52,508 nt of DNA, taken from positions 1-52,508 of the forward strand of contig JAFQCK010000081.1 of the NCBI GenBank assembly GCA_017416465.1, given 5' to 3'. A program made the translations under genes and the position numbers. A model generated the notes under the pieces. The model worked only from the letters and a program-made list of their open reading frames with translations, made no database searches and was not told the origin of the DNA. Source of the DNA: Lachnospiraceae bacterium (GTDB taxonomy: Bacteria > Bacillota > Clostridia > Lachnospirales > Lachnospiraceae). Below, piece by piece: positions 12,798 through 32,893 of this stretch. The first letter of the stretch is position 1. Each line of letters opens with the position of its first letter.

Positions 12798-13376
12798 TTA
12801 AATGATAACAGGTTGAATTTGTTTTTTATCTAAAGCCATTTCGAGCGTCGGAACAATAAGTTCTGTGTGTGCAATCATTGAATTAGGTTTTGCGAAACAA
12901 TTATCCTGACCAAAAGGTACGAAGAAAACATTTTTAGTGTTTAATAAAGAGCCGATGTTTTTAAAATTCATACCTAAGGCGTCATTGGTAGAAACAGAAA
13001 TAACTAAAGGTCTGCCTGTTCTAACATGACCTTTTGCAGCCATAAGCACCGGAGTATCAGTAATGCCGTTGTTAAATTTAGCTAAAGTATTTCCGGTGCA
13101 TGGTGCAATAATTAATATATCTAAAATATCATTAGGTCCAAATTTTTCTGCTTCTGCAATTGTATTTACTGATTTGTTCTCAGTAATTTCCTCTACATAT
13201 TTAACAAAATCTTCTGCCTTTCCAAATCTTGTATCAATATTATAGGCGTTGAATGAAAATATCGGTATGATATTTACATCTCTTTTCTTTAAGATTTCTA
13301 ATTCTTTTTTTATAGCAGAAAATGTGCAAAAGGAACCGGTTATAGCAAAACCAACAGTTTTACCTTTCAAATCCAT
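12798..13376 (-). CDS. dpaB: Dipicolinate synthase subunit B
   Basis: A 192-aa flavoprotein-like subunit of dipicolinate synthase. With DpaA it oxidises dihydroxytetrahydrodipicolinate to dipicolinic acid, the calcium chelate that fills the spore core. The sequence has the flavoprotein (Rossmann-like) start KGKTVGFAITGSFCTF, an IIAPCTGNTLAKFNNGITD segment and a GQDNCFAKPNSM C-terminal motif, as in SpoVFB. It lies 17 bases downstream of dpaA in one operon. Presence of this pair is strong evidence that the organism makes endospores, in the mother cell. Confidence 0.95.
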   Translation of the reverse strand: MDLKGKTVGFAITGSFCTFSAIKKELEILKKRDVNIIPIFSFNAYNIDTRFGKAEDFVKYVEEITENKSVNTIAEAEKFGPNDILDILIIAPCTGNTLAKFNNGITDTPVLMAAKGHVRTGRPLVISVSTNDALGMNFKNIGSLLNTKNVFFVPFGQDNCFAKPNSMIAHTELIVPTLEMALDKKQIQPVII

Positions 13377-13393
13377 AAGAATACTCCTTTCAA

Positions 13394-14242
13394 CTAGGTT
13401 TTAATACAGTTGCAGATAATCTTTGCAGAGGTTGCGGGAGAATATTTTCCGGGCAATCCCAGGCAAAGGTGGGCATTAATGCCTATTTTTTTGCAGATAT
13501 CAAAATCTGTTCCTCCGGGGTTTGATGAAATATCTATAATTGTTACGTCAGATTTTACTAGAGTTAAAAGTTCTTTGTTTAAAACTTTAGCAGGAATTGT
13601 ATTAAAAATAAAATCATAAGTTTTTATTTTATGTTCTAATTTATCGAAAGAAAATGAATTACAACCATCTTCGTAAGCTAATGCTTTTTGAACATTTCTT
13701 CTGGCACATACATCAACTATGCAGTTTAAAGAAACTAATTTTTTTGCAAGAGTTGAACCACATCGTCCGTATCCTAAAACCAGTACATTAGCTTTGTGAA
13801 GATTAAGTGGACTGTGTATAATGGCTTCTGCTATTGCACCCTCAGCAGTGGCAATGGAATTATATAGTGCAAAAGAATCACTTTCAATGATATCCCATAC
13901 CATTACTCTTTTACTGTGACATTTTTCTTTGAATGTTTTATCCATACTTCCACCATAAATAATTGTTCCGGGAGTTAGTAATTCAAGTAAATAATCTATT
14001 CCTATTGAATCGGAAACTGAATTTATAGTGTGTTTGTTTTTACTATAAGGTATAGGAAGAAGAATTACATTATAATTAGATAACTTGCTGTCTGAATCTA
14101 AGAATTCGTCCATATCATATGAAATTGTAATACCCGGGACATCTAAAGCTGATATATTATATCCATCAGCTTTTAGTTGTTTATATAGATACTCTTGTCT
14201 GTTGTCACCACCAATTAATAATATATTATCTTTAATATTCAT
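13394..14242 (-). CDS. dpaA: Dipicolinate synthase subunit A
   Basis: A 282-aa NAD(P)-binding subunit of dipicolinate synthase (SpoVFA). Residues 1-130 form the N-terminal family domain (LLIGGDNRQEYL). A dinucleotide-binding motif, VLVLGYGRCGSTLAKKL, sits near 152-168. The C-terminal region has IIDISSNPGGTDFD and LGLPGKYSPATSAK, both typical of the family. AAGGAGG precedes the start on the minus strand. A sequence matching a sigma-K promoter lies 23 bases upstream, fitting late mother-cell expression. Confidence 0.95.
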   Translation of the reverse strand: MNIKDNILLIGGDNRQEYLYKQLKADGYNISALDVPGITISYDMDEFLDSDSKLSNYNVILLPIPYSKNKHTINSVSDSIGIDYLLELLTPGTIIYGGSMDKTFKEKCHSKRVMVWDIIESDSFALYNSIATAEGAIAEAIIHSPLNLHKANVLVLGYGRCGSTLAKKLVSLNCIVDVCARRNVQKALAYEDGCNSFSFDKLEHKIKTYDFIFNTIPAKVLNKELLTLVKSDVTIIDISSNPGGTDFDICKKIGINAHLCLGLPGKYSPATSAKIICNCIKT

Positions 14243-17735: not shown

Positions 17736-20700
17736 TTGAAGGAACTTATTGGAAAACTATCACATGGAATCATAGAAAATAATATTGCAGAATTGGAAGT
17801 TTCTGTTACATCTATTGAAGAATCAATAGAGGCAGGAACAGTTTTTCGTGGAAAATTTGAAATTTTTAATAAAAATGAAGGCGAATTAAAAGGTATTATA
17901 TATTCATCTAATGAATATTTAAGAATACTTAATGATCAGTTTGTAGGAAAAAATTCAAAGATTGAATATGAAGTAAATACTAAGTATATGGAACCGGGAG
18001 ATATAATAAGTGGAAAGATAAATATTGTAAGTAATGGTGGGGAAGTGTTTATTCCATTTATGATAAACATTATTGCTGAAAGTATACCGTCAAGTATAGG
18101 AAATATTTCTAATATATTTCATTTTTTAAATCTTGTAAAACAGGAATATGATGAAGCAGTAAAGATGTTTTTGTCGCCGGATTTTAAGAGGATTATATTA
18201 GGCAAAAATGTTGCTGATCGCTGTATGTACGATGGTTTGATTAAAAGCGCTAATAGCAGAAGAGCGTTGGAAGAATTTGTAATAGCAATCAATAAAAAAC
18301 AAAAAGTAGAGTTTGAAATTTCTGATTCAGTAAGAGAATATGACTCATTGATAGAATCTTATGGTGACCTACTTCTGTTGTCCAGAAATACATGGGGATT
18401 ATTAGAGATTAGTGTTGAAACGGAAGGTGATTTTATCTGTGATTATAAGAAGATGATTACAGATGAAGATTTTGCAGGGAATAATTACGAATTTACATAT
18501 CTTATAGATGTTAATAAATTGCATTCGGGACTTAATTATGGAAAGATTGTTTTCGCATCAATTAACAATAGATTTGAATGTAGCATTTTAGTGGATAATA
18601 TCAAAGGTCGTGACAATTCTAAGTTTGAAGTTAAGAAATGTCTTTCGAAACTTAATCAGTTGTATCTTGATTTCAGAATGAGAAAATGTCAGCTTGATAA
18701 GTGGTCAGATGAATCTCTTTCATTAATTGAAAGAGCAAGGGGATTTAATGATAATAATATGTTCCTGAAATTATTACAGGCACAGGTTTATTTATCAAAG
18801 AAAGATGATGAAAATGCTAAGTGGTTGCTCGATAGTGTCGGAGAAAATATTCTTGACAGAAAAGAAGAGAATATACCATTATATTGTTTTTATTTGTATG
18901 TAAGGACATTACAAAAGAGGGAACTTGATAATACCCTTATGACAACGGAGATAATAAAAAAATATTATGAAAATGGTTATGACAAGTGGGAACTTTTATG
19001 GATTCTTATGTATATTGACCCTTCGTTTGAAAATAATAAGAGTTTAAAAATTACGAGAATAAAAGAACAGTTTAAGTTAGGATGTCATAGTACTCTTATG
19101 TATTATGAAGCATTGTATGTATTTAACAAGCAACCGGCACTTCTTAGAGTACTTAATGATTTTGAATTGCAGGTTCTTAATTTTGGAAGTAAATATGACG
19201 GAATAGAATTAAGACTTGCAGTGCAGATTTCAGAGTTGTCAATGCTGGAGAAGAGTTTCAGACCACTATTATTTGGTATTCTTGTTAAGTTATATAAAAA
19301 GTTTGAAAATAAAACAATATTAACAGCTATTTTAAGTGTTTTGATAAGAGGAAATAAAACAGATACTAAATATTTTGAATGGTATGAGCTTGGTGTTAAA
19401 GCTGATATTCAGGTTACAAGATTGTATGAATATTATATTTTTTCAATGCCAAAGGATTATGATGAGCTTTTACCAAATACAATTTTAATGTACTATGTAT
19501 ATAATGCAAATTTGTTATATGATAGGGAAGCGTTCTTTTATTCACTTGTTATAAAACATAAAGACAGAAACCCTAATATGTATAAGAACTATGTTAAAAA
19601 CATAGAAAAGTTTGCATTGGAAAAACTCCGTAAAGGTGAGATTGATGAAGAACTTAGTATTATATATGAAGATATATTAACAACTTCTATGATAACTGAG
19701 GAGAATGAAAAAAATCTTCCTAAAATTCTAAATACTTGGAAGATTACGCTCACAGATGATTTTATAAATGAAGTAATAGTTTTTCATAAAGAGATAAAAG
19801 ATAAGACTGTTTATAAGGTTAATAAAAAATGCGCCTATATTAATGTTTATACAGAAGATGTAATTATATTATTTAGGGATTTGAATAATAATGTATATTT
19901 AAATTCAATTGGATATACTATTCAAAAACTATATGAAAATAAAGAATTAAATGAAGAAGCTGTAATTAGAAATGAAGACAATATATATTTAGTTTCAAAG
20001 GAATGTGAGCAATCCATTAAGTATCAAAAAAGGTTGAAAAATGGAGTTACACTTTTTAATAAAATAATAGATAATGATAGTTTTAATGAAGAGTATCAAG
20101 ACTATATATTAAGTGATATTATTGAATATTACTCTAATAATTTTGACAGCGAAGATTTAGATGAGTTTTTGAAAAATGTAAATATTACAAGATTAAGCAG
20201 AGAATCAAGAGTAAGCATTATTGAATTAATGATAACAAGAGGTTTATATGATGAGGTTTTGGAATACATAAATCTTTATGGGACTTACGGAATAGATTCT
20301 AAGAAGATTCTTAAATTTGTTACTTACATTTTAAGAAACGGAAAAGAAGACTTAGTAGAAAATATATTAATATATTGTTCCGAATCATTCAAAAAAAGTA
20401 AGTATAATGAATTATCTCTTGAGCATTTATGCAATAATTTTAATGGTACTACAAGAGAAATGATGGAACTTTGGAGAATTTCAAAAGATTTTTCGATTGA
20501 AAGCAGAGATTTGGAAGAACGAATTATAGCACAAATGTTGTTTTCGAGGACAAATGTTTCAAGTATATCTGTTATTTATGACTCATACTACAGAAAAGGA
20601 AGTTTAAAACTCATAAAAAAAGCATATTTATTTTATCAATCGTACATTTATTTTGTAAAAGAAACTCCTATAGATGAGTTGTTTTTTAGACATTTAGAAG

Positions 20701-21281
20701 ACGAAATGATATTTAATGAAAATGTCCTTGATATTTGTAAGTGCTCCTATTTGTTATATAATTCTGATAAAGACTCCTTAAGTGAAAGAACATTAGAGAT
20801 ATGCAGAAATTCAATTGTATATCTTGAAAAAGCAGGTATTATTTTTGACTTCTATAAAAACTATGACAAATTCTTTGATTTATCAGGAAAAATTATGGAT
20901 AAAACAACTATAGTTTATAGAACAGAGCCGGCAGATAAAGTTTTAATTAATTATTATATTGAAACAGGAAATTTATTGCCAAAAGATTATATTTCAGAAG
21001 AGATGAAACAGGTATTTCCGGGAATGTATATTAAATCATATACTTTGTTTTATGGTGAAAAAATTAATTATTATATTATGGAGACACGTGGAGAGGATAG
21101 CGTTTTGACTGAAAGTTGTGAATATAATCTTGATGACAGAACTATAGAGGTTAGTAATTCAAGATTTGGTAAGTTGAACGATATTTTAGTGTGTAGGGAA
21201 TTAAAGGATGAAAAACTTGTTAGAGGTTTAGCAAAAGAATATTATATAAACAATGAATTAGTAAAAAGATTATTTGGGTAA
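17736..21281 (+). CDS. DUF5717 family giant protein (beta-sandwich plus helical repeat)
   Basis: A 1181-aa protein that I assign to DUF5717, a family of unknown function from Lachnospiraceae. Residues 1-125 look like an Ig-like beta domain (PGDIISGKINIVSNGGEVFIPFMINI), with a second beta-rich stretch at about 200-290. From about 300 to 1050 it is almost all helical, with spacing suggesting a TPR-like or HEAT-like solenoid. The last 130 residues turn beta-rich again. No signal peptide or transmembrane helix is evident, so it is probably cytoplasmic. Translation starts at TTG with GAAGAGG seven bases upstream. First gene of a four-gene co-oriented block. The size and repeats suggest a scaffold; the role is unknown. 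Confidence 0.8.
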   Translation: MKELIGKLSHGIIENNIAELEVSVTSIEESIEAGTVFRGKFEIFNKNEGELKGIIYSSNEYLRILNDQFVGKNSKIEYEVNTKYMEPGDIISGKINIVSNGGEVFIPFMINIIAESIPSSIGNISNIFHFLNLVKQEYDEAVKMFLSPDFKRIILGKNVADRCMYDGLIKSANSRRALEEFVIAINKKQKVEFEISDSVREYDSLIESYGDLLLLSRNTWGLLEISVETEGDFICDYKKMITDEDFAGNNYEFTYLIDVNKLHSGLNYGKIVFASINNRFECSILVDNIKGRDNSKFEVKKCLSKLNQLYLDFRMRKCQLDKWSDESLSLIERARGFNDNNMFLKLLQAQVYLSKKDDENAKWLLDSVGENILDRKEENIPLYCFYLYVRTLQKRELDNTLMTTEIIKKYYENGYDKWELLWILMYIDPSFENNKSLKITRIKEQFKLGCHSTLMYYEALYVFNKQPALLRVLNDFELQVLNFGSKYDGIELRLAVQISELSMLEKSFRPLLFGILVKLYKKFENKTILTAILSVLIRGNKTDTKYFEWYELGVKADIQVTRLYEYYIFSMPKDYDELLPNTILMYYVYNANLLYDREAFFYSLVIKHKDRNPNMYKNYVKNIEKFALEKLRKGEIDEELSIIYEDILTTSMITEENEKNLPKILNTWKITLTDDFINEVIVFHKEIKDKTVYKVNKKCAYINVYTEDVIILFRDLNNNVYLNSIGYTIQKLYENKELNEEAVIRNEDNIYLVSKECEQSIKYQKRLKNGVTLFNKIIDNDSFNEEYQDYILSDIIEYYSNNFDSEDLDEFLKNVNITRLSRESRVSIIELMITRGLYDEVLEYINLYGTYGIDSKKILKFVTYILRNGKEDLVENILIYCSESFKKSKYNELSLEHLCNNFNGTTREMMELWRISKDFSIESRDLEERIIAQMLFSRTNVSSISVIYDSYYRKGSLKLIKKAYLFYQSYIYFVKETPIDELFFRHLEDEMIFNENVLDICKCSYLLYNSDKDSLSERTLEICRNSIVYLEKAGIIFDFYKNYDKFFDLSGKIMDKTTIVYRTEPADKVLINYYIETGNLLPKDYISEEMKQVFPGMYIKSYTLFYGEKINYYIMETRGEDSVLTESCEYNLDDRTIEVSNSRFGKLNDILVCRELKDEKLVRGLAKEYYINNELVKRLFG

Positions 21282-21371
21282 CTTGGATTTTTTAAGATAT
21301 AGATTTTAAGAGAGCTTTTTGAGTTTTAACATTTATCTATATAGTTTTATGTGAAAGGTTTGGTAGACAAT

Positions 21372-22664
21372 ATGAGTGTTGAAAGAGATAAAAACAAAAT
21401 TTTTGTTTCGATTGATTTGTGCAGAGATTATAGTCAAATTACATATTGTTATTCGGATAATATGAATGAGCCGGAATCGGTTAGTACCATTCCAGGTGAA
21501 CAAAAATATCTGATACCGACTGTTGTGGGTAAAATAAATGATGCGAATGAATGGATTATTGGTGACGAAGCTTTATTAAGAAATAGTAGAGCAGAAGCAC
21601 AGATTTCTAAAGATATAGTGAATGCAATTTTGGCAGAAAAAAATACGGAAATTAATGGTAGAGCTTACTCGGGATATGATATTTTAAAAGTGTTTATTGT
21701 AGGATTGTTAAAGCTTTTAAATACTAACCATCATATTGAGAGACCTGACTATCTTGTAGTCACGGTTGAATATCCTGATAGGATTTTGGTGAATATTATA
21801 AGAAGCATTTTGGAAGATATTGGACTTGAAAAGGAAACTGTTAAAGTATTGGGGCATTCGGAAAGCTTGATATATTACATGATTTTTCAAAAAAAAGAGT
21901 TATGGGTAAATGATGTATTTATTTTTGATTTTACTGAGCATCAATTTCAGGTTAGAAGACTTAATTCTGTAAGGTCAAGGTTGCCTCAGCCGATTGTTGT
22001 TGAGGAGATGGATTTATCAACTAAATATGATATTAGTATGACAGAGACTGAGGAAGGAAAAGTAAGACTTGATAGGCAGTTTTTGGAATTTTTACAGGAT
22101 ATTTGTTCAAAACATATTGTATCTACGGTTTATTTGACAGGTGTGGGATTTTATAAGGAATGGATGAAAGAATCTATCAGATTTTTATGCAGTAAACGAA
22201 GGGTTTTTCAAGGGTATAACCTATTTGTTAAAGGAGCCTGCTATGGTGCAATAAGTGAAGCTGGAATAGGTAATGCGGGAGATTATCAGTTCGTTTGCTC
22301 AGGAAGGACGTTAGTAAATATTGATTTAGAGATTGTAAAAGGCGATAAAATCATTCCGGTTTCTTTGTCTAAAGCAGGAATTAATTGGTATGAAGCAGGT
22401 GCAAGAGCTGAAGGAATTCTTGATGCAAGCAGGGAGATACGACTTAGAATTAATTCATCAATAAGTAAGAATTCTAAGATAGTAACGATTAATTTAATGT
22501 CATTCCCACCAAGACCTAACAAGACAACCAGGATAGAGATTATTCTATCATATAGAACTGACAGACAATGTATAGTTATGGTAAAAGATTTAGGATTTGG
22601 AGACTTCTTCAAATCCTCCGGAGATACAGTTAAGGAAATATTGAACATAGAAGAATTTATCTGA
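21372..22664 (+). CDS. DUF5716 family protein, degenerate actin/Hsp70-like ATPase fold
   Basis: A 430-aa protein. The first 290 residues follow the layout of a DnaK/actin-type ATPase: phosphate-1-like FVSIDLCRDYSQITY, then an LIPTVVGKINDANEWIIG segment like the SVVAF...VGD of Hsp70, LVVTVEYPDR, a phosphate-2-like VFIFDFTEHQFQ, and an adenosine-like VYLTGVGF...GACYGA. The glycines that normally bind phosphates (DLGTTNS and DLGGGT) are missing, so it may bind nucleotide poorly or not at all. The C-terminal 130 residues are beta-rich, possibly like a substrate-binding domain. An in-frame GTG at 21351 is an alternative start; neither has a strong ribosome-binding site. I recall DUF5716 next to DUF5717 in Lachnospiraceae. 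Confidence 0.75.
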   Translation: MSVERDKNKIFVSIDLCRDYSQITYCYSDNMNEPESVSTIPGEQKYLIPTVVGKINDANEWIIGDEALLRNSRAEAQISKDIVNAILAEKNTEINGRAYSGYDILKVFIVGLLKLLNTNHHIERPDYLVVTVEYPDRILVNIIRSILEDIGLEKETVKVLGHSESLIYYMIFQKKELWVNDVFIFDFTEHQFQVRRLNSVRSRLPQPIVVEEMDLSTKYDISMTETEEGKVRLDRQFLEFLQDICSKHIVSTVYLTGVGFYKEWMKESIRFLCSKRRVFQGYNLFVKGACYGAISEAGIGNAGDYQFVCSGRTLVNIDLEIVKGDKIIPVSLSKAGINWYEAGARAEGILDASREIRLRINSSISKNSKIVTINLMSFPPRPNKTTRIEIILSYRTDRQCIVMVKDLGFGDFFKSSGDTVKEILNIEEFI

Positions 22665-22728
22665 TTTTATTTAGAGATTAAATTAGAGGATTGTTAATAT
22701 ATAGAACAAACTGCATTGGAGGACAAAT

Positions 22729-23565
22729 ATGAGTGGTCTGATTTTATGTACAAAGAAAGCGGATATTCCATATAGAATATCTGATGCAAATATAAACATT
22801 TATTCAATTGAAGAGTTGGCATATTACTTGTATAATAATGCTTATTTTGTAGATGATAGTTTTTTTACGGAGGAATTAATTGAATATATCGAAGAAAAAC
22901 TTAATCTTAAGAAGATTGCGCAACGACTTCGTTACGCGATAGGACAGAAAATGGATTTTTATGAGCTTGTTATGATTATTGTAACAGGAGCGATGTATTT
23001 TTCTGAAAATGAGATTAGAGGTTTTGAAAAGGAATTAAAATCAATTGGTACAAAGAGTATGCTTGAAAGGATGAAGGCAAGAGCAGTAATGCTATACGAA
23101 AACGGAAAGCTTTCGTCGGCAATGCAGGTATATGATAATATATTATCTAACAGCACGTATAAAAAACAGTCAGATGAATTTTATTCAGATGTGTATTTTG
23201 GGAAAGCGAAAATTCATTGTCGAATGTTTTATTTTAAAGATGCTATAGAAGAATTAAACGAAGCATATAGACTTAATAATACTTTAGAGATATTAAAATC
23301 TTTAATTTATGCAAAGCTTTTATATGAAAAAACATTTGGTATAAAAGTGGATTTTACAGATGAACTGGAAAATAATTCTGAGATAGTATTTAGTTGTAAA
23401 CAGGATTTGAAAGCTTTAGAGACACAGTTATTAAATGGTAGTGAGTATGAGCGCTTATCTAAAATATTTATATATGATGGCAAACGTAATCTTGATGATT
23501 ACTATGAAGAGATACAGAATGTTTTGGATAATTGGAAAGATGAATACAAGACTAATTTTTTATAA
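22729..23565 (+). CDS. Hypothetical TPR-like helical protein of the DUF5716/5717 block
   Basis: A 278-aa protein that I cannot assign to a named family. Residues 10-90 are acidic and helical (SIEELAYYLYNNAYFVDDSFFTEELIEY). From about 110 to 205 the pattern ARAVMLYENGKLSSAMQVYDNIL and FGKAKIHCRMFYFKDAIEELNEAYRL reads like two to three TPR units. No signal peptide or membrane helix. GGAGG lies just before the ATG. The gap to the preceding gene is 64 bases without a terminator. The position suggests an adaptor between the solenoid or ATPase-like protein and the membrane protein encoded next; this is inference from layout. Confidence 0.7.
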   Translation: MSGLILCTKKADIPYRISDANINIYSIEELAYYLYNNAYFVDDSFFTEELIEYIEEKLNLKKIAQRLRYAIGQKMDFYELVMIIVTGAMYFSENEIRGFEKELKSIGTKSMLERMKARAVMLYENGKLSSAMQVYDNILSNSTYKKQSDEFYSDVYFGKAKIHCRMFYFKDAIEELNEAYRLNNTLEILKSLIYAKLLYEKTFGIKVDFTDELENNSEIVFSCKQDLKALETQLLNGSEYERLSKIFIYDGKRNLDDYYEEIQNVLDNWKDEYKTNFL

Positions 23566-23609
23566 AATAAAAGTTTGTTACTTGATATGAAAGGAAAGTT
23601 GGTAGTAAC

Positions 23610-24794
23610 ATGGGTCTGTTTAAAAAAAAGAAAAAGTATGAAGATGATTTTTTGGATGATTTAGTTATAGACGGCTTTGATGAAAATAAATCAGGAATTG
23701 AGACTGAACCTTTAGAAGCGGATACATTAGAAAATAAAAAACAGGCTATTGAGAATTGTTGTGACAGAATTACAAGTGCAAATTCAAGGATAGCAGAATT
23801 GAAAATTGAATATCAGACGGTTAATTCATATCTGAATGATATAATGTTGATAGAAAATCTGTCTGCTGAACAGAAAGAAGAAATTATAGAGTATGCAAAA
23901 CGAGTGGTAGTGCTTGATAAAGATAGAAAAGATTTTGGAAAATCAATGTCAAAGCTTAGCGATAAGCAATATCGTTATATGCATGATAATGAAGAAGAAA
24001 TTGCCGATATAATTAAGAGTATGGCAGAAGATGAAAAATACTGCGAATCTGTTAAAACAGATATGAGGTATCTTGAAGGGGAGAAAGCCGGATTACAAAT
24101 TGAGATAAAAGAGCAGAAAAGAATTATTCGTTCATTGTATGAAATTTCAAAATTTGCAGTTAGTGCCTTTGTTGTTCTTATGTCGATTTTATTGGTAATG
24201 GAATTTGGATATAATAAAAATGTTACTGGTTTAATTTATGCTGTTATAGCTTGTGCTGTTGTATTTACAGCTACAATATTTACAGTAAGAAATAAAGCAG
24301 ACTATGAGCTTAAACTGGCAAAAATACGAATGAATCGTGCTATTGGATTACTTAATAAAATTAAAATTAAGTATGTAAATATAGCAGGAAAGTTAAGTTA
24401 TCTGTATGAGAAATATGGAGTAAAAAGTTCATATCAGTTAAGCAAGGTATGGGCAGCATATTTAACTTTAAAAAAAGAAAGAGAAGTATATAATAAAGCC
24501 TCTGTAAGACTTATAGAAGCGGAAGATAGTTTAGTGTCGTTGTTAAAAAGAGCTACAGTAAAAGATGCAGGCATTTGGATAAATCAGGCATATGCATTGT
24601 TTAATGAATCTGATATGGAAGAAATAAAAGAGCATTTGTATAAAAGAAGAGAGAAACTTAAAAGTTCTTTGGATTATAACAACGAAGTTATGGATAAATC
24701 CAGAGAAGAAATAAAAATGATAGTGCTAAGTAATAGTGAACATGCGGATGAATTGATGAAAATACTTGAAGCTTATGAAGAAAGCTTGGGGTAG
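23610..24794 (+). CDS. Coiled-coil protein with membrane hairpin, last gene of the DUF5716/5717 block
   Basis: A 394-aa protein with no recognised family. A short basic start (MGLFKKKKKYEDDFLDDLV) leads to an acidic linker, a heptad-rich coiled coil at about 45-170, two adjacent transmembrane helices at about 178-197 and 203-222 (FAVSAFVVLMSILLVMEFG and GLIYAVIACAVVFTATIFTV), and a second long helical, probably coiled-coil region at 225-390. Both soluble arms should lie in the cytoplasm, giving a membrane staple. AAAGGAAAG precedes the ATG. A terminator follows, closing the block. It could anchor the other three products, but no catalytic motif is visible. Confidence 0.7.
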   Translation: MGLFKKKKKYEDDFLDDLVIDGFDENKSGIETEPLEADTLENKKQAIENCCDRITSANSRIAELKIEYQTVNSYLNDIMLIENLSAEQKEEIIEYAKRVVVLDKDRKDFGKSMSKLSDKQYRYMHDNEEEIADIIKSMAEDEKYCESVKTDMRYLEGEKAGLQIEIKEQKRIIRSLYEISKFAVSAFVVLMSILLVMEFGYNKNVTGLIYAVIACAVVFTATIFTVRNKADYELKLAKIRMNRAIGLLNKIKIKYVNIAGKLSYLYEKYGVKSSYQLSKVWAAYLTLKKEREVYNKASVRLIEAEDSLVSLLKRATVKDAGIWINQAYALFNESDMEEIKEHLYKRREKLKSSLDYNNEVMDKSREEIKMIVLSNSEHADELMKILEAYEESLG

Positions 24795-24811
24795 AATATA
24801 GGTTTAAATGA

Positions 24812-24852
24812 AAGAGAGTCAGTTATCAAGGTGATAATTGATTCTTTTTTTG
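24812..24852 (+). terminator. Intrinsic terminator after the DUF5716/5717 block
   Basis: GAGTCAGTTATCA pairs with TGATAATTGATTC with one or two mismatches, followed by TTTTTTTG. Confidence 0.75.
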
Positions 24853-24897: not shown

Positions 24898-24926
24898 TTG
24901 ACAAATATTAAAGTAACATATATAAT
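24898..24926 (+). promoter_or_regulatory. Consensus sigma-A promoter of the Rpn-like gene
   Basis: TTGACA (24898-24903), 17-bp spacer, TATAAT (24921-24926), about 88 bases before the start codon. Confidence 0.75.
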
Positions 24927-25013: not shown

Positions 25014-25901
25014 TTGGGAGAAAAAGACAAAACAGAAAAATATCTTGAAGCATACAATGATGTATTTGCAGATATATTTAATGTATTAGTATTTGAAGAA
25101 GACATAATTATACCAGATTCTCTAGTGAATGCAGGAACAGAAACCATATATAAGAGTAAAGATGGAAAATTGAAAAATCAATTAAGAGATATACAAAAGT
25201 ATTATAATGAATCGCATATTCAGATAGCTTCACTTGGAATAGAGAATCAGTCAGAAGAAGATAAAGATATGGTTATAAGGATATTGGGTTATGATTATGC
25301 AAGTTATAGAGAGCAGATAATTAATAAAAAAGATGGAAGATATCCGGTAATAACAATAGTATTAAATTTTAGCGAAGAAAAATGGTCAGCGCCAAAATCA
25401 CTTATAGAAGTCTTGGATATTCCAAAGGAATTAGAAGGATATGTAGAAGATTATCATATAAAAGTATATGATATAGCATATCTTCCAAAAGAAATAAGAG
25501 ATAGATTCAAAAGCGATTTTAAAGTGGTAGCAGATTTTTTTGCAGAGAAAAGATTAGGTACATATGATGCAAGTAAGCATAAAGAGAGGATAATACATGT
25601 TGAGGCAGTTCTTGAAATGTTAAGGGTGTTTACAAAAGATGAAAGATATAAGGAGATAGAAGAGATAATTAACAAAAATCTGGAAGGTGATGTAAGTATG
25701 TGTAAAGTTTTGGATGAGTATGAAAGAAGAGGAATAGAAAAAGGAATAGAAAGAGGAATAGAAAGAGGAATAGAACAAACAATACTGAATTTAGTAAAAA
25801 ATAATCGATTATCTGTAGAAGTGGCTTGTGAAGAATTAAATATTTCTAAGGAAGAATTTGAAGAGAAAATGTCAAGTTTTAATAGTTTGGTAAAAATATA
25901 A
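25014..25901 (+). CDS. Rpn family recombination-promoting nuclease / PD-(D/E)XK protein
   Basis: A 295-aa protein of the Rpn/YhgA-like group, annotated as putative transposases or recombination-promoting nucleases with a PD-(D/E)XK-type fold. The N-terminus has the family pattern YLEAYNDVFADIFNVLVFEE, then GTETIYKSKDGKLKNQLRDIQKYY, where the acidic and RDxxK-type residues would form the active site, then YPVITIVLNFSEEKWSAPKSL. The C-terminus has GIERGIERGIEQ tandem repeats and a helical tail. Start is TTG behind GAGGGGG. No terminal inverted repeats are seen. A broken paralogue lies directly downstream, evidence of tandem duplication. Biological role in this organism is unknown. Confidence 0.82.
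   Translation: MGEKDKTEKYLEAYNDVFADIFNVLVFEEDIIIPDSLVNAGTETIYKSKDGKLKNQLRDIQKYYNESHIQIASLGIENQSEEDKDMVIRILGYDYASYREQIINKKDGRYPVITIVLNFSEEKWSAPKSLIEVLDIPKELEGYVEDYHIKVYDIAYLPKEIRDRFKSDFKVVADFFAEKRLGTYDASKHKERIIHVEAVLEMLRVFTKDERYKEIEEIINKNLEGDVSMCKVLDEYERRGIEKGIERGIERGIEQTILNLVKNNRLSVEVACEELNISKEEFEEKMSSFNSLVKI
25736..25774 (+). repeat. 12-bp tandem repeat encoding GIE(K/R) units
   Basis: GGAATAGAAAGA-type 12-mers are repeated about three times in frame near the 3' end of the Rpn-like gene, encoding GIEKGIERGIERGIEQ. The downstream pseudogene copy has only one unit, showing that unit number changes between copies. Slippage would alter length without a frameshift. Confidence 0.75.
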
Positions 25902-25943
25902 ACAGTTATGAATAATTAATGAAACGTAAGAAGGGAAAAGTAA

Positions 25944-26537
25944 TTGGGAGAAAAAATATAAAACAGAAAAATACCTTGAATCATACAATGATGTATTTGC
26001 AGATATATTTAATGTATTAGTGTTTGAAGAAAATGTAATAGCACCGAATACTTTGATAAATGCAGGAACAGAAACATAGAAACATTAGATATTCCAAAAG
26101 AGTTAGTTGGATATGTGGAAGATTATCATATAAAAGTATATGATATAGCATACCTCCCTAAAGAAATCAGAGATAAGTTTAAAAGTGATTTTAAAGTTGT
26201 AGCAGATTTTTTTACAGAAAAAAGATTAGGTACATACGATGCAACTAAGCATAAAGAGAGGATAATACATGTTGAGGCAGTACTTGAAATGTTAAGGGTA
26301 TTTACAAAAGATGAAAGATATAAGGAGATAGAAGAAGAGATAATCAACAAAAATTTGGAAGGTGATGTAAGTATGTGTAAAGTTTTGGATGAATATGAAA
26401 GAAGAGGAATAGAAAAAGGAATTATGAATTTAGTGAAAAATAATCGATTATCCATAGAAGTGGCGTGTGAAGAATTAAATATTTCAAGAGAAGAATTTGA
26501 AGAAAAATTAGATAAGTATAAATTATCTGTAAGTTAA
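25944..26537 (+). pseudogene. Decayed second copy of the Rpn-family gene
   Basis: The 5' part (from TTGGGAGAAAAA at 25944) is nearly identical to the intact gene but gains one base right after the start, giving an early stop. About 260 bp present in the intact copy (its 25146-25403) is missing here, with the joint near 26085, and the deletion also breaks frame. The remaining 3' part is open from 26115 (140 codons) and encodes the conserved VEDYHIKVYDIAYLPKEIRD region through to a C-terminus with a single GIEKG unit. It lacks the start and the predicted active-site region, so it is unlikely to be functional. Confidence 0.85.
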
Positions 26538-26572
26538 ATCGTTTATTAAATCCATATTATAATAATGTATAT

Positions 26573-26617
26573 ATTGTAACCTGATTCTAAAAAAGAATTA
26601 TAGGTTGCAATTTTTTT
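26573..26617 (+). terminator. Intrinsic terminator after the Rpn-like pair
   Basis: ATTGTAACCTGATTCT pairs with AGAATTATAGGTTGCAAT around a short A-rich loop, followed by TTTTTTT. Confidence 0.75.
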
Positions 26618-26711
26618 GATTTGAAATAGATTTTTTTTTGTTTTAATTCGTTTATAATTATATAAACAAATTTGATGATATATTAAAAATTTAAAAGGCA
26701 AGGGTGTGAAA

Positions 26712-27227
26712 ATGATAAATAAATATAAATACAAAGATTTTGAAGAAATATATAATCGACAATCTGACAGAATATTTAAAATGTGTATGACTTATTTATG
26801 TAATGAAGAGGATGCCAAAGAAGCTGTGCAAAATATTTTTATGAAATTACTTGAGAAAAATATTAGATTCAAAGATAGTAATCATGAGAATGCATGGCTA
26901 TGTAAAGCTACAAGAAATTATTGTTTGGATGTACTGAAAAGTGCATGGAAAAAGAAAAGAGTAGATTTTGAAACACTTCCTGAAGTAAACACTTCTGATA
27001 AAGATTTAGAAAATAATGAAAAAGAGTTAATAGAAAAAGCACTTATAAAGTTATCTATAAAGCAAAAAGAAGTAATATATCTTTATTATTATGAGGAATA
27101 TTCGATTAAAGAAATTTCAAAAATATTAAAACGAAGTGAAAGTACTATACAAACACAGTTATCGACGGCAAGGAAAAAGATGAAAGAAATTTTGAATAGT
27201 GAAAAATTTAGAAAGGAGGAGGATTAG
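26712..27227 (+). CDS. ECF-type RNA polymerase sigma factor
   Basis: A 171-aa sigma-70 family factor of the extracytoplasmic-function type. Region 2 spans about residues 5-70 (FEEIYNRQSDRIFKMCMTYLCNEEDAKEAVQNIFMKLLE, with the typical DA.EAVQ.IF core) and region 4 about 110-160 (LSIKQKEVIYLYYYEEYSIKEISKILKRSESTIQTQLSTARKKM). Regions 1 and 3 are absent, as expected. Start is taken at ATG 26712 with AAGGG seven bases upstream; GTG at 26706 is possible. Its stop lies one base before the start of the downstream membrane protein, so the two are translated together, the usual sigma/anti-sigma arrangement. Confidence 0.92.
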   Translation: MINKYKYKDFEEIYNRQSDRIFKMCMTYLCNEEDAKEAVQNIFMKLLEKNIRFKDSNHENAWLCKATRNYCLDVLKSAWKKKRVDFETLPEVNTSDKDLENNEKELIEKALIKLSIKQKEVIYLYYYEEYSIKEISKILKRSESTIQTQLSTARKKMKEILNSEKFRKEED

Positions 27228-27228
27228 T

Positions 27229-29862
27229 ATGAAATATAATGATGAAGATGTAAAAAAAATTTATAAGGATTATGTGGAAAATATAAATAAACCGGATATT
27301 AGTTTTAAGCAAATTTGGGATAATTATGAGAAAAAAAGTAATAAAAAAGAATTTCTACATAAAGAATATGGCTATGTTTCAGTGTTCGAAAAGATTGCGA
27401 TAGTAGTACTTGCGTTCGTAATCATAGGTGGAATTTCATTAAGTTATTTTTTGGATAAGAAAAATAAAATTGATAAAAATGAAATTAACAGTAATGATAG
27501 CAATATAATTAACCAACCACTTAATATAGAGTATAAGGAAATAGAAGATTATTATGAAGTTTCCAAACAATATGAGTCAGAGGGATATTTACAAAAAAAT
27601 AATAAAGTTTGGAAATGGAAGGATGACAATTTACTTATCTATAAAGATGGAGAAGTTTTATGGACAATTCCATCAGAAAAAAAGGAATATTTAATAACAA
27701 GGGAAGAGTATCCGGATGGAAAGACAATAACATTTTATTATGCCGAATACGAAGGTGAAGTATATGTAAGACAACCACAGATGTATATGTCTGGAGAAGA
27801 TATTTTAGTTACAACAGATGGAAAGGAAATATATCTTTTATTTGGAGAACTTGACAGTATTACTCATGAAGGTTTTTCTTGTCAAAAACCTTATATATTA
27901 AATATGGAGACGGGTGAATATACGGAGATATTAAGTGATTTAGAAATAGATGGGAAAATTTATACAGAATATGAAGTGTATAGGGATTGGGAATTTTATG
28001 GAGATTATGCTTATGTATATATAAGAGAAGAGAATGACCACGACCATAATACACCTGATAAAAAATATAAAGTGAATTTAAAAAGTAAGACTTTTAACGT
28101 GTATGAGAGCACAGTATCAGATAATTACACAAGAGAATTTGATGTGATAAGAAAAAATGAAAAATATTATCTTATAAATACCATAACAGATGAACAATTA
28201 ATTGAATTAGAACCTGAAATTGCAAAGAAAATAAATGGTTTATATATTAATGAGGATAAGAGTAAAATCTTGATTTATGTGAATGAGTATAAAAGCGACA
28301 TTGCAAGAATGGCTATGATTGATACAAGCAATTACAAGATAGAATATTTTAGTTCTAAGCTAAATAGGGGAGAATGGCTTTTTGTAGATGATAAATTATG
28401 TTATCAATTTGGAGATGTATATACTGTTTATAAGGAGATAGAGAATAAAGTTGAAGAATTGCCTGAATATGTATATATAGGAGAAAATGAAATAATAAAA
28501 GTAATATCAGACTATTTAATTAATGAATATGATGAACTTGGAGTTGAAGTAGAAGAGAACAATATTTTTATACCTAATGTTTATATTACACACGAAAAAG
28601 AAGATGGTGATGTAAGAAAAATATATACAATTGTAGCTTTATATGATTATACAAAAGAAGAAGATACACTTGTTGAATATAGTGGTAAAGAATTAGTTAT
28701 GTGTTTTTATCTGAAAAAAGAAAACGAAGAATATGTGGTAGATAAGGTGATTAAAAGTAAGGAAGGTTCAGAGGCGCTTCAAAGTGTAAAAGATATGTGT
28801 GGAAATAATCCCAAAATGGTTACTGAGATTATGGACGAATATCAAAACATTATGAAGAAAAGAGGTATTGATAAAACTAGAGAAGAGGATTTGGAAAGAT
28901 ATGTAGATGTAAATGATTTAGATATAAGATATGTAGAAGCTTATAATGGCGTACATATTTATATCGGAACTTCAGATTTTGATATTCAAATATATCATGA
29001 CTGGGTTGATAAGTTATCAGTATATGATACTAATGAAGAAAAATTCTCTAAAGATAAATTTTTAATAAAAGAAATTTTAGATGAAAATTTGGAATACAGA
29101 GAAATACCGGACTATGAAATAAAAAACTATGAAAGTTCGACAGAAGATGGCATTATAATAAATGGATACAGTGATGAAGAAATGATTTTATCTATAATAG
29201 TATTAGAAGATAATATTATTGGAATAAGAAATCATGAATTTGATGAAGGAATCAAATGGTATGAAACAAATAAATCTAGAGATTATGATGAAATTAAAAA
29301 GAGGATAATGGGTGAAAATGCGAATGGATATTATACCTGGTATTATGATATAACTCATGATGGATTGAAGGATAAGATTTTAGTAAATACAAGAACTCTT
29401 TATGAAATGCCAAAAGAAGGTGAAAATACAATTTCAATATATTCAGGAAGGACATACGAATTAATATGGACTGAAAATATTAATTCATCTCATATGGGAG
29501 AAGGTAGTATAAGAATATATAATGATGGAGAAAAAGATTATTTATTAATGTGGAAACCATATATGGAACAAGGTGATGCAGTTTACAGATGTAAAGTTGT
29601 AAAATTATCAGAAGATGGAAATGAAGAAATTATAGATGAAAAAGTATTTAGCTATAGTCTTAATTCTTTAAGCGTTGATACAGAGGCACTTAGAAAATAT
29701 GGCGAAGAAGTTAATTCTTATTTAGAAAAATCTTTTGTATTAGCTGAGTCGGGTTCAATTATGGGAGAAGGTCACAGTACAGATAAGGAAAAAAGAATTA
29801 CAACTTATGATGTTGAAGCTGATATAAAATCAATAGAGGAAAACTTAGACAGTATGCAATAA
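27229..29862 (+). CDS. Probable anti-sigma factor with a very large extracytoplasmic domain
   Basis: An 877-aa membrane protein. Residues 1-50 are a charged helical cytoplasmic segment (DVKKIYKDYVENINKPDISFKQIWDNYEKK) that could bind the sigma factor, followed by one transmembrane helix at about 55-74 (IAIVVLAFVIIGGISLSYF) and about 800 residues predicted outside. That domain is rich in acidic residues and beta-like strands, with motifs such as GEVLWTIP and YTWYYDITHDGLKDKILV that hint at beta-propeller or VCBS-like repeats. AAAGGAGGAGG before ATG 27229 fixes the start; an in-frame ATG at 27199 lies inside the sigma gene. Anti-sigma function is inferred from the coupling to the ECF gene. Confidence 0.72.
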   Translation: MKYNDEDVKKIYKDYVENINKPDISFKQIWDNYEKKSNKKEFLHKEYGYVSVFEKIAIVVLAFVIIGGISLSYFLDKKNKIDKNEINSNDSNIINQPLNIEYKEIEDYYEVSKQYESEGYLQKNNKVWKWKDDNLLIYKDGEVLWTIPSEKKEYLITREEYPDGKTITFYYAEYEGEVYVRQPQMYMSGEDILVTTDGKEIYLLFGELDSITHEGFSCQKPYILNMETGEYTEILSDLEIDGKIYTEYEVYRDWEFYGDYAYVYIREENDHDHNTPDKKYKVNLKSKTFNVYESTVSDNYTREFDVIRKNEKYYLINTITDEQLIELEPEIAKKINGLYINEDKSKILIYVNEYKSDIARMAMIDTSNYKIEYFSSKLNRGEWLFVDDKLCYQFGDVYTVYKEIENKVEELPEYVYIGENEIIKVISDYLINEYDELGVEVEENNIFIPNVYITHEKEDGDVRKIYTIVALYDYTKEEDTLVEYSGKELVMCFYLKKENEEYVVDKVIKSKEGSEALQSVKDMCGNNPKMVTEIMDEYQNIMKKRGIDKTREEDLERYVDVNDLDIRYVEAYNGVHIYIGTSDFDIQIYHDWVDKLSVYDTNEEKFSKDKFLIKEILDENLEYREIPDYEIKNYESSTEDGIIINGYSDEEMILSIIVLEDNIIGIRNHEFDEGIKWYETNKSRDYDEIKKRIMGENANGYYTWYYDITHDGLKDKILVNTRTLYEMPKEGENTISIYSGRTYELIWTENINSSHMGEGSIRIYNDGEKDYLLMWKPYMEQGDAVYRCKVVKLSEDGNEEIIDEKVFSYSLNSLSVDTEALRKYGEEVNSYLEKSFVLAESGSIMGEGHSTDKEKRITTYDVEADIKSIEENLDSMQ

Positions 29863-30234: not shown

Positions 30235-30253
30235 TGTTGAAAGGAGAATGATT

Positions 30254-32893
30254 ATGGCAAAAGAATTAGAAAAAAATTATAATCCTGCCGATATCGAGCA
30301 GAGATTATATGACAAATGGGAAGAAAACAAATATTTTCATGCAGAGGTAAATAGAGATAAGAAACCATTCACTATTGTTATGCCTCCACCAAACATTACA
30401 GGACAGCTCCATATGGGACATGCCCTTGATAATACAATTCAGGATATTTTAACAAGAACAAAAAGAATGCAGGGATATGAAGCACTTTGGCTTCCGGGAA
30501 CAGACCATGCTTCAATTGCAACAGAGGCAAAGATTGTTGAAAAAATGCGTGAAGAAGGCGTTACAAAAGAAGATTTAGGACGTGACGGTTTCTTAGAGAG
30601 AGCTTGGGAATGGAAGAAACAATATGGCGGAAGAATTGTTGCACAGCTTAAGAAAATCGGTTCATCTTGTGATTGGGACAGAGAAAGATTTACAATGGAT
30701 GATGGTTGTAATAAGGCGGTAAAAGAAGTATTCGTAAATCTTTATAATAAAGGACTTATTTACAGAGGCGAAAGAATTATCAACTGGTGTCCGCACTGTC
30801 TTACATCTATTTCAGATGCAGAGGTTAATTATGAGGACCAGGCAGGACACTTTTGGCATTTAAGATATCCGTTATCAGATGGAAGTGGATACATCAATCT
30901 TGCTACAACAAGACCTGAAACATTACTTGGTGATACAGCGGTTGCAGTTAATCCAAATGATGAAAGATACAAGGATATGATTGGAAAAACAGTTATTCTT
31001 CCAATCGTTCACAGAGAAATTCCAATCGTTGCAGATGATTATGTTGAAATGGAATTTGGTACAGGTGTTGTTAAGATTACACCGGCACATGACCCTAACG
31101 ACTTTGAGGTTGGTTTAAGACATAATCTTGAAATCATCAATGTTATGACAGATGATGCAAAGATTACTGAAGATTATCCAAAATATGCAGGAATGGATAG
31201 ATATGAAGCAAGAAAAGAAATTGTAAAAGATTTAGAAGCAGAAGGTGCTTTAGTTAAGATAGAAGATTACAGCCACAATGTTGGAACATGTTACAGATGT
31301 AAGACAACGGTTGAGCCAAGAGTATCGAAACAGTGGTTTGTAAAAATGGAGCCGCTTGCAGGACCTGCAATTGATGCTGTTAAAAATGGCGATACAAAAT
31401 TTGTTCCACCACACTTTGATAAAACATATTTCCACTGGTTAGAAAATATACGTGACTGGTGTATTTCAAGACAGTTATGGTGGGGACACAGAATACCAGC
31501 GTTCTATTGTGATGACTGTGGAGAAATGATAGTAACAAAAGATAACGAAGCAGTTTGTCCAAAATGTGGTAAGGCTATGCGTCAGGACCCGGATACGCTT
31601 GATACATGGTTCTCATCAGCACTTTGGCCATTTTCAACACTTGGATGGCCTGAGAAGACAGAAGAACTTGATTACTTCTATCCAACAAGTGTACTTGTAA
31701 CAGGTTATGACATTATTTTCTTCTGGGTAATAAGAATGATGTTCTCGGGACTTGAGCATGCAGGTGAAGTACCATTTAAGAATGTACTTATTCATGGACT
31801 TGTAAGAGATTCTCAGGGAAGAAAGATGAGTAAATCACTTGGAAATGGTATTGACCCATTAGAAGTAATTGAAAAATATGGCGCAGATGCATTAAGATTT
31901 ACACTTATTACAGGAAATGCACCTGGTAATGATATGAGATTCTATTATGAAAGAGTTGAAGCAAGCCGTAACTTTGCTAACAAAGTATGGAATGCGTCAA
32001 GATTCATAATGATGAATATGCCTGAAGACGGAATAAAGGAAGTTGATAAATCTGCACTTACAAATGCTGATAAGTGGATTTTATCAAAGGCAAACACACT
32101 TGCAAAAGAAGTAACAGACAATATTGAAAAATTCGAGCTTGGTGTTGCTGCAGATAAATTATACAACTTCATTTGGGAAGAATTCTGTGACTGGTATATT
32201 GAAATGGTTAAACCAAGACTTTACAGTGAGGATAATACAACAAAAGAAGCTGCACTTTACACATTAAAGACAGTTCTTGAAATCTCGCTTAAATTACTTC
32301 ACCCATACATGCCATTTGTAACAGAAGAAATATTCTGTACATTAAATGAAGGTGCAGAGTCTATTATGATTGAAAAATGGCCTGAATATACAGAAGAACT
32401 TAACTATGCTACAGAAGAAGAATCAGTAGAAGTAATTAAGGAAGCTGTAAGAAATATCAGAAATGTTAGAGCAGGCATGAACGTTCCACCTTCAAAGAAA
32501 GCAATGGTTTATATTGTTACAGAAAACGAAAAAGTTGCTGATATATTTGAGGATGGAAAGGTATTCTTCCAGACACTTTCCTATGCCAGTGATGTAATTA
32601 TCCAGAAGGATAAGAACGGAATCGGTGATGATGCGGTTTCGGCAGTTATTGAAAATGCAAATATCTATATGCCATTTGCAGAGCTTGTTGACATAGAAAA
32701 AGAAATTGAAAGACTTAAGAAAGAAGAAGAAAAACTTGAAAAAGAGCTTGCAAGAGTAAATGGAATGTTAGCAAATGAGAAATTCGTAAGTAAGGCACCT
32801 GCTTCAAAGATTGAAGAAGAAAAAGAAAAACAGGCTAAATACACACAGATGATGAAACAGGTTAAAGACCAGCTTGCACATCTTATAAAATAA
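30254..32893 (+). CDS. valS: Valine--tRNA ligase
   Basis: An 879-aa class I aminoacyl-tRNA synthetase charging tRNA-Val. It has the HIGH-type motif as HMGH at 53-56 ([10 protein letters not shown]), the editing CP1 domain with [17 protein letters not shown], a zinc-ribbon-like [10 protein letters not shown] and [10 protein letters not shown]...CPKCGKAM, the KMSKS motif at 524-528, an anticodon-binding helical domain and a C-terminal coiled coil ([21 protein letters not shown]). Length is typical. ATG at 30254 is preferred over 30248 because AAGGAG is then seven bases away. The T-box ahead controls it by valine supply. Confidence 0.97.

Follow-up and report, generated by a model that had tools for sequence, protein, structure and literature searches.

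The stretch of DNA analysed here (the window, positions 1 to 52,508 of contig JAFQCK010000081.1, 52,508 nucleotides in all) comes from a Lachnospiraceae bacterium and carries, at 17736-24794, a block of four genes that we call A, B, C and D. The initial annotation of this DNA had described a giant beta-sandwich and helical-repeat protein (DUF5717), a protein with the layout of Hsp70 and actin (DUF5716), a TPR-like protein and a membrane coiled coil, encoded by co-oriented genes ahead of a terminator and forming, as was proposed, one complex of scaffold, ATPase-like switch, adaptor and membrane anchor. What the present analysis adds is that the block appears to be a reduced multi-Hsp70/GrpE cluster and that D follows one flagellar type. 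The features are as follows.

17736-21281, plus strand: gene A, DUF5717, 1181 amino acids (open reading frame, Pfam, structure model, comparison of loci)
17736-18107, plus strand: first beta-sandwich of A, PapD/ASH-like fold, residues 1-124 (structure model)
18303-18605, plus strand: second beta-sandwich of A, residues 190-290 (structure model)
18615-20897, plus strand: TPR-like helical solenoid of A with a beta insert, residues 294-1054 (structure model)
20901-21128, plus strand: C-terminal beta-rich domain of A, residues 1056-1131 (structure model)
21351-22664, plus strand: gene B, DUF5716, 437 amino acids, lidless pseudo-Hsp70, orthologue of Hsp70b (B2) (Pfam, tree, structure, residues)
21351-22265, plus strand: degenerate nucleotide-binding-like domain of B (model, motif spacing)
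22284-22646, plus strand: beta domain of B, where Hsp70 has its substrate-binding beta domain (model, structure matches)
22729-23565, plus strand: gene C, TPR-like, 278 amino acids, joined to B in four relatives (Pfam, locus comparison)
23610-24794, plus strand: gene D, coiled coil, two-helix membrane hairpin, coiled coil, 394 amino acids (open reading frame, homologues, co-occurrence)
24135-24284, plus strand: two hydrophobic helices of D, residues about 176-225 (helix comparison, homologues)
about 24810-24850, plus strand: intrinsic terminator ending the block (fold z -6.9)

The four genes stand co-oriented in the list of open reading frames (ORFs) of the window, and the closing terminator described earlier was recovered as a hairpin 3′ of D of -19.9 kcal/mol (the z score being taken against shuffles), while none of the three gaps inside the block holds a significant fold (z -0.7, 0.5 and -0.8). 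A simple terminator scan of both strands between 16300 and 25100 gave four sites (1.5 expected), one of which lies at 21979 on the plus strand, inside gene B; the hairpin behind D is not among them.

By Pfam, protein B matches DUF5716_C (E 2e-97) without reaching the HSP70 model (PF00012). DUF5716 nevertheless is a derivative of Hsp70, since two proteins of the larger cluster introduced below, Hsp70b and Hsp70c, match HSP70 and DUF5716_C alike above the cut-offs. The structure model of B (predicted local distance difference test, pLDDT, 94.7) has DnaK as its top PDB match (E 4e-19, template-modelling score up to 0.62 by query length), with Hsc70, BiP, Sse1 and Ssz1 among the best matches, and it presents the Hsp70 succession of an actin-like domain and then a substrate-binding beta domain; no helical lid follows the beta domain, where the protein stops. 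A sequence search of solved structures with B returned a single chance-level match (E 0.33). In the stretch between the phosphate-2 and adenosine motifs about half of the residues are gone, the median spacing in the family's B proteins being 66 residues against 139-175 in the other Hsp70 groups (range 54-73 against 112-177). Moreover, K70, E171 and T199, DnaK positions that we take to belong to the ATP site, are all lost in 36 of 36 B proteins of the family, which retain 1-6 of the 15 positions tested, mostly two aspartates and one glycine. The table behind these counts covers 127 of 128 Hsp70-like rows, one fragment being omitted and genes in two overlapping fetched loci being counted twice. 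The Hsp70b proteins of the larger cluster lack K70 and T199 in 24/24 rows and E171 in 21/24, and the phosphate, catalytic and adenosine residues are held at nearly every position by Hsp70a (B1), Hsp70c (B3) and Hsp70d (B4), in 25/25, 25/25 and 17/17 rows, respectively. The Hsp70/actin-like layout read from the sequence earlier was therefore right as to the fold, but the label of ATPase-like switch is ruled out by the loss of the three key residues, and B very probably operates without an ATPase cycle.

The origin of such a protein becomes apparent from relatives in which the locus is longer. In the order Lachnospirales we find a cluster reading A1-A2 (or a fused A)-Hsp70a-GrpE fusion-Hsp70b-Hsp70c-Hsp70d-TPR, sometimes followed by D, in which Hsp70d bears a vWA domain and the GrpE fusion is a coiled-coil protein ending in GrpE, mostly of 500-650 amino acids (279 in genome G038). 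Pfam supports these assignments with E-values of 1e-14 and 7e-11 for GrpE and of 1e-16 to 1e-95 for HSP70, and finds the vWA domain as well. The survey outside the window's family comprised 29 genomes with fetched loci and 38 named loci, some of them from the same genomes; the latter came from a name scan with the GrpE fusion, and all belong to Clostridia, Eubacteriales or other Bacillota. The complete order from A to C was read in 15 of the 29 genomes (with Hsp70d in two frames in G038) and in 18 of the 38 named loci; in all but one of these 38 (37) the pseudo-Hsp70 comes after the GrpE fusion. Among the other 14 genomes, 7 loci end at contig or window ends, and those of G050, G441, G469, G486, G395, G364 and G375 appear to deviate from this order or to be broken up.

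In a tree of 75 of the 128 Hsp70-like rows, all 19 sampled B proteins of the family form one group (Shimodaira-Hasegawa-like approximate likelihood ratio test 99), which joins the Hsp70b of G038 (100) and is set apart from the intact Hsp70s on their own branch; G038, still possessing the longer cluster, is thus the nearest outgroup of the window's B. Hsp70a, Hsp70c and the family's B each make up one group, and a few rows break up Hsp70b and Hsp70d. GrpE counts agree with the locus comparison: two GrpE proteins above the cut-off were found in 16/16 genomes with the larger cluster, one in 5/5 genomes of the order without it and one in 21/21 family genomes (two of these having a further match below the cut-off), and none of the domain families found in A-D is GrpE. 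Together, locus comparison and GrpE counts indicate that the family's block lost Hsp70a, Hsp70c, Hsp70d and the GrpE fusion, with no second GrpE above the cut-off elsewhere in the 21 genomes, and on these sequence comparisons the block is almost certainly a reduced form of the larger cluster.

Compared with the DnaK-GrpE machine, the larger cluster is similar in its three Hsp70s with intact ATP-site residues and its GrpE domain. It differs by the fusion of GrpE to a long coiled coil, by one vWA-Hsp70 and one pseudo-Hsp70, and by the lack of a J domain among the families found for ten cluster proteins (a check that took in 25 of 34 families of the TPR protein); in the window only the pseudo-Hsp70 is left. 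This ancestry raises the possibility, which we consider doubtful, that the block still functions as a chaperone, B binding clients in its beta domain and borrowing its cycling from the housekeeping DnaK/GrpE while A would provide a platform for nascent chains or clients, as in the ribosome-associated complex (RAC). The beta domain of B, its rank next to DnaK and Ssz1 structures and the single GrpE of each sampled family genome are what such a chaperone would call for; the missing J domain and lid, and the lack of any known client, speak against it. Yeast RAC (Ssz1 and Zuo1) also uses a non-canonical Hsp70 as a structural partner, and the structures matched by B include chains of Ssz1. Differently from RAC, no J protein was found and no ribosome link was seen for the block, and in B the loss of the fold and of the ATP site has gone much further than in Ssz1, as the ATP site of the latter is usually described.

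The nearest analogue of the larger cluster in the literature searched is a set of GTPase-centred GAP1-N2 conflict systems of actinobacteria and firmicutes, whose neighbourhoods contain, alongside HSP70 and GrpE, a second, reduced HSP70 that lacks the peptide-binding domain, as well as fusions of FNIII proteins with DnaJ or TPR (eLife 2020, e52696). This resemblance, which extends to the beta-sandwich protein with TPR, could mean that the block is an immune or conflict system of the same kind. However, those systems have GTPases and effectors, neither of which was found among the cluster proteins scanned, the block is near-universal in its family and no PADLOC family was matched by A-D at E 0.01, so that we regard this as extremely improbable and reject a defence system. 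PADLOC gave a weak partial PDC-M61B match for three intact Hsp70s of the larger cluster. A mobile element was likewise rejected: D has no plasmid match, and the five B matches in a phage collection are unannotated contigs from human feces that are probably bacterial. Three of the phage-collection entries (MT835719, MT835988 and MT835486) hold B homologues of about 30-33% identity and probably represent bacterial DNA filed as phage.

Protein A matches DUF5717_N (E 2e-301) and DUF5717 (E 2e-86) by Pfam, and its structure model (mean pLDDT 87.8, predicted template-modelling score 0.62) consists of two sandwiches, a long helical solenoid and a further sandwich, which bears out the beta-sandwich/helical-repeat protein seen in the initial annotation; a sequence search of solved structures with A gave one chance-level match (E 0.15). 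The window's A is a fusion of A1 (about 400 amino acids) and A2 (about 900 amino acids), which are separate genes in the majority of the order's other families that we read. A1/A2 fusions, or an A shortened to 931-1006 amino acids, occur in other families too (L039, L092, L104 and the f22 loci L085-L088). Structures of the eukaryotic ciliary central pair also turn up among the matches of both A and B, a likeness that we consider a coincidence of common folds; the chains matched are presumably the Hsp70 and the HYDIN-type ASH proteins of that structure.

Gene A belongs to the core of its family. It was found in 148 of 150 genomes of the window's family (one per genus), in 93 of 196 genomes of an order-level sample of Lachnospirales (35/35 of its own family, 58/161 of others) and in 4 of 299 genomes of a phylum-wide sample, all four from the same family and including the window's own genome. 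A split-A2 profile run on the phylum sample reached 9/299 genomes, 4 of the family and 5 with short partial matches (E 9e-5 to 9e-4) that were not counted. Checking the gene order, which had been suggested as a way to recognise genes that merely occur independently, gave A, B and C consecutively in 60/60 further loci fetched from the 150-genome sample, which speaks against independent occurrence. Furthermore, B and C are one protein of 684-723 amino acids in L069 and in three of the 60 loci (L167, L173 and L176), on two separate branches of a tree built on 81 A proteins (81/150 family genomes). C reaches a TPR match only below the family cut-off (E 1e-4). D has no Pfam match above the cut-off; its two hydrophobic helices recur in all 19 D homologues with E < 1e-20, as expected for the coiled coil with a membrane hairpin that had been described. 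The notion of a conserved unit with a scaffold-like A, a TPR-like C and a membrane protein D is thereby upheld.

No mention of DUF5717 was found in those parts of the literature that were searched, and DUF5716 appeared once, in a paper whose title concerns curcuma derivatives and mismatch repair, in keeping with the earlier statement that both lack an assigned function; the titles and abstract openings searched likewise held no description of the four-gene block.

The co-occurrence of the genes with motility and sporulation markers, another check proposed at the outset, separates D from the other three. Among the 150 family genomes FlhA, which we take as the marker of a flagellum, is present in 79 and D in 62; all 62 genomes with D have FlhA, and D occurs in 0 of the 71 without it (Fisher p 9e-27). 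SpoIVA, presumed to mark sporulation and the sole marker used for it, is above the cut-off in 105 genomes and is indifferent to D (44/62 genomes with D against 61/88 without, p 0.86). The A tree yields 8 supported independent contrasts in D; FlhA changes in the same direction in about 7 of them and in the opposite one in none (median p 0.016, range 0.008-0.063 over pairings, a test resting on few pairs), whereas the SpoIVA control is flat (p 1). On this one marker the sporulation role suggested earlier is rejected, the more so as A occurs in 148 of 150 genomes and SpoIVA in 105. A check independent of homology gave the same picture: an ORF of 300-520 amino acids with two helices lies behind C in 27/28 loci with D and in 0/52 without, a 29th D locus that stops before C being left out. 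Joint absence of D and flagella through shared ancestry alone would account for the clustering of both absences in some clades, yet the independent contrasts and the flat control make it very unlikely.

The flagellated genomes without D find their explanation in the FlhA tree (40 rows, taking in 35 of the 79 flagellated family genomes). One branch (type I, 100/100) holds 18/18 sampled genomes with D, 5 sampled genomes with the larger cluster and G529, and a deep second branch (type II, 100/100) holds 16 of the 17 flagellated family genomes lacking D. FlhF adjoins FlhA in 24/24 type I loci and was not found in 16/16 type II loci, a result that refers to the stretch fetched around FlhA and not to the rest of the genome. 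In 9/16 type II loci hits called FlhG, of 255-270 amino acids, were weaker and were not counted, the one in L217 starting like a ParA-type ATPase. Type I is probably the inherited flagellum, since it is common to sister families; type II FlhA is also present in family f17 (2/2 sampled). The flagellated genomes without D are scattered over the A tree (12 changes), and this scatter, with two deep FlhA types within one family (L208-L224 against L228-L245), suggests horizontal replacement of flagella.

Outside the family, FlhA accompanies A in 55 of 58 genomes as against 51 of 103 without A (p 9e-10, kinship not controlled), the exceptions being G395, G428 and G453, and 8/8 sampled flagellated genomes with A are of type I. 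In the fetched loci, to which the search for D outside the family was confined, D is found in G038, G041 and G359 (f4, f7) and in the named loci L118, L136 and L140. We consider it likely that D acts with the type I flagellum.

These observations can be combined into a scenario that we favour tentatively, as a quite possible rather than a probable account: an ATPase-dead A-B-C scaffold to which D is the flagellum-specific membrane adaptor. By the comparison of loci, the window's family retained the fused A, the pseudo-Hsp70 B and the TPR-like C, and also D where the flagellum is of type I. A, B and C would form a cytoplasmic complex on the solenoid of A, with C as adaptor and B as an ATP-independent binding or tethering module, as Ssz1 is in yeast RAC; D would bring this complex to the membrane and serve the flagellum of type I, the one with FlhF and FlhG, where its part would most likely lie in the assembly, number or placement of basal bodies, and A-B-C would additionally have a general, flagellum-independent role. 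A physical complex of the four proteins is reasonably likely. That D is an adaptor for placement or assembly in particular is a more speculative proposal: basal bodies are guessed as the client because type I has FlhF and FlhG, which control flagellar number and position according to a recent article (Mol Microbiol 2025, PMC12327844). The likeness to the FlhF/FlhG system is that D of the sampled family genomes occurs only with the flagellar type having FlhF beside FlhA; unlike that system, A-D contain no FlhF/FlhG-type domain by Pfam.

Several observations weigh against this scenario. Of the 71 family genomes that lack FlhA, 70 still carry A, and the order A-B-C holds in each of the 26 FlhA-less loci read, so that the core cannot be only flagellar and must have another role; the block as a whole is thus ruled out as a flagellar system in this family, where presence is tied to flagella for D but not for A. 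Type I FlhA occurs in 7 of 9 sampled flagellated genomes outside the family that have no cluster, and the inherited flagellum therefore does not need the cluster everywhere. G529 is the sole exception in the FlhA tree, with a type I flagellum and neither A nor D (93% complete). When the contrasts are drawn in FlhA instead, 17 of them being independent, D changes in the same direction in 7 and never in the opposite one, but shows no difference in 10, which we attribute to type II flagella going without D. In-frame stops interrupt 3 of the 62 D genes (G570, G598 and G641), all in genomes with FlhA. No site resembling the sigma-28 consensus was found upstream of A or D, the window as a whole having 20 such sites against 12.6 expected. 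Finally, co-occurrence of D and FlhA is not contact, and in the window's own genome the two genes lie on different contigs (C59 and C69).

The separate contigs, like the retention of A without FlhA, fit a general membrane or proteostasis complex of A-D in which D has no action on the flagellum and is only selected alongside motility, for instance as an element of a motile way of life. A link through lifestyle would not predict that D is missing from the 16 genomes flagellated with the other FlhA type, and we think this explanation rather unlikely. If, on the other hand, D does attach the Hsp70-derived, ATPase-dead scaffold to one flagellar lineage, the block could represent a new class of flagellar accessories, with a complete multi-Hsp70/GrpE machine as its ancestor, which in sister families is confined almost entirely to flagellated genomes. 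That machine may formerly have used ATP-driven cycles to fold or place basal bodies, a task that it would now perform passively; we offer this conjecture with considerable reserve.

For the two DUF families, the comparison provides an origin in an Hsp70 machine and a structural class, and DUF5717 emerges as near-universal in its bacterial family. The membrane protein of the operon gains a sharp functional lead, and D serves as a marker gene in a family now shown to have two flagellar types. The block also offers a natural case of a chaperone machine that dropped its ATPases while retaining the scaffold.

As for the neighbourhood, the aminotransferase gene that frequently neighbours A in other genera is encoded on the opposite strand and is nothing out of the ordinary. 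Directly behind C or D, several relatives have an ORF of about 880 amino acids, which Pfam identifies as valS in L054 and in the window. Here, about 5 kb (25014-29862) separates D from valS (30248-32893), filled by a YhgA-like (Transposase_31) gene, a shorter copy of its second half, an extracytoplasmic function (ECF) sigma factor and an 887-amino-acid protein that has no Pfam match; a perfect sigma-70 consensus (24898-24926) stands ahead of the YhgA-like gene. A dipicolinate synthase-like pair (DpaA_N and a flavoprotein) is encoded near the block on the minus strand (12798-14242), in a genome that has SpoIVA, and a gene for a methyl-accepting chemotaxis protein lies at 37942-40512, about 13 kb downstream of D.

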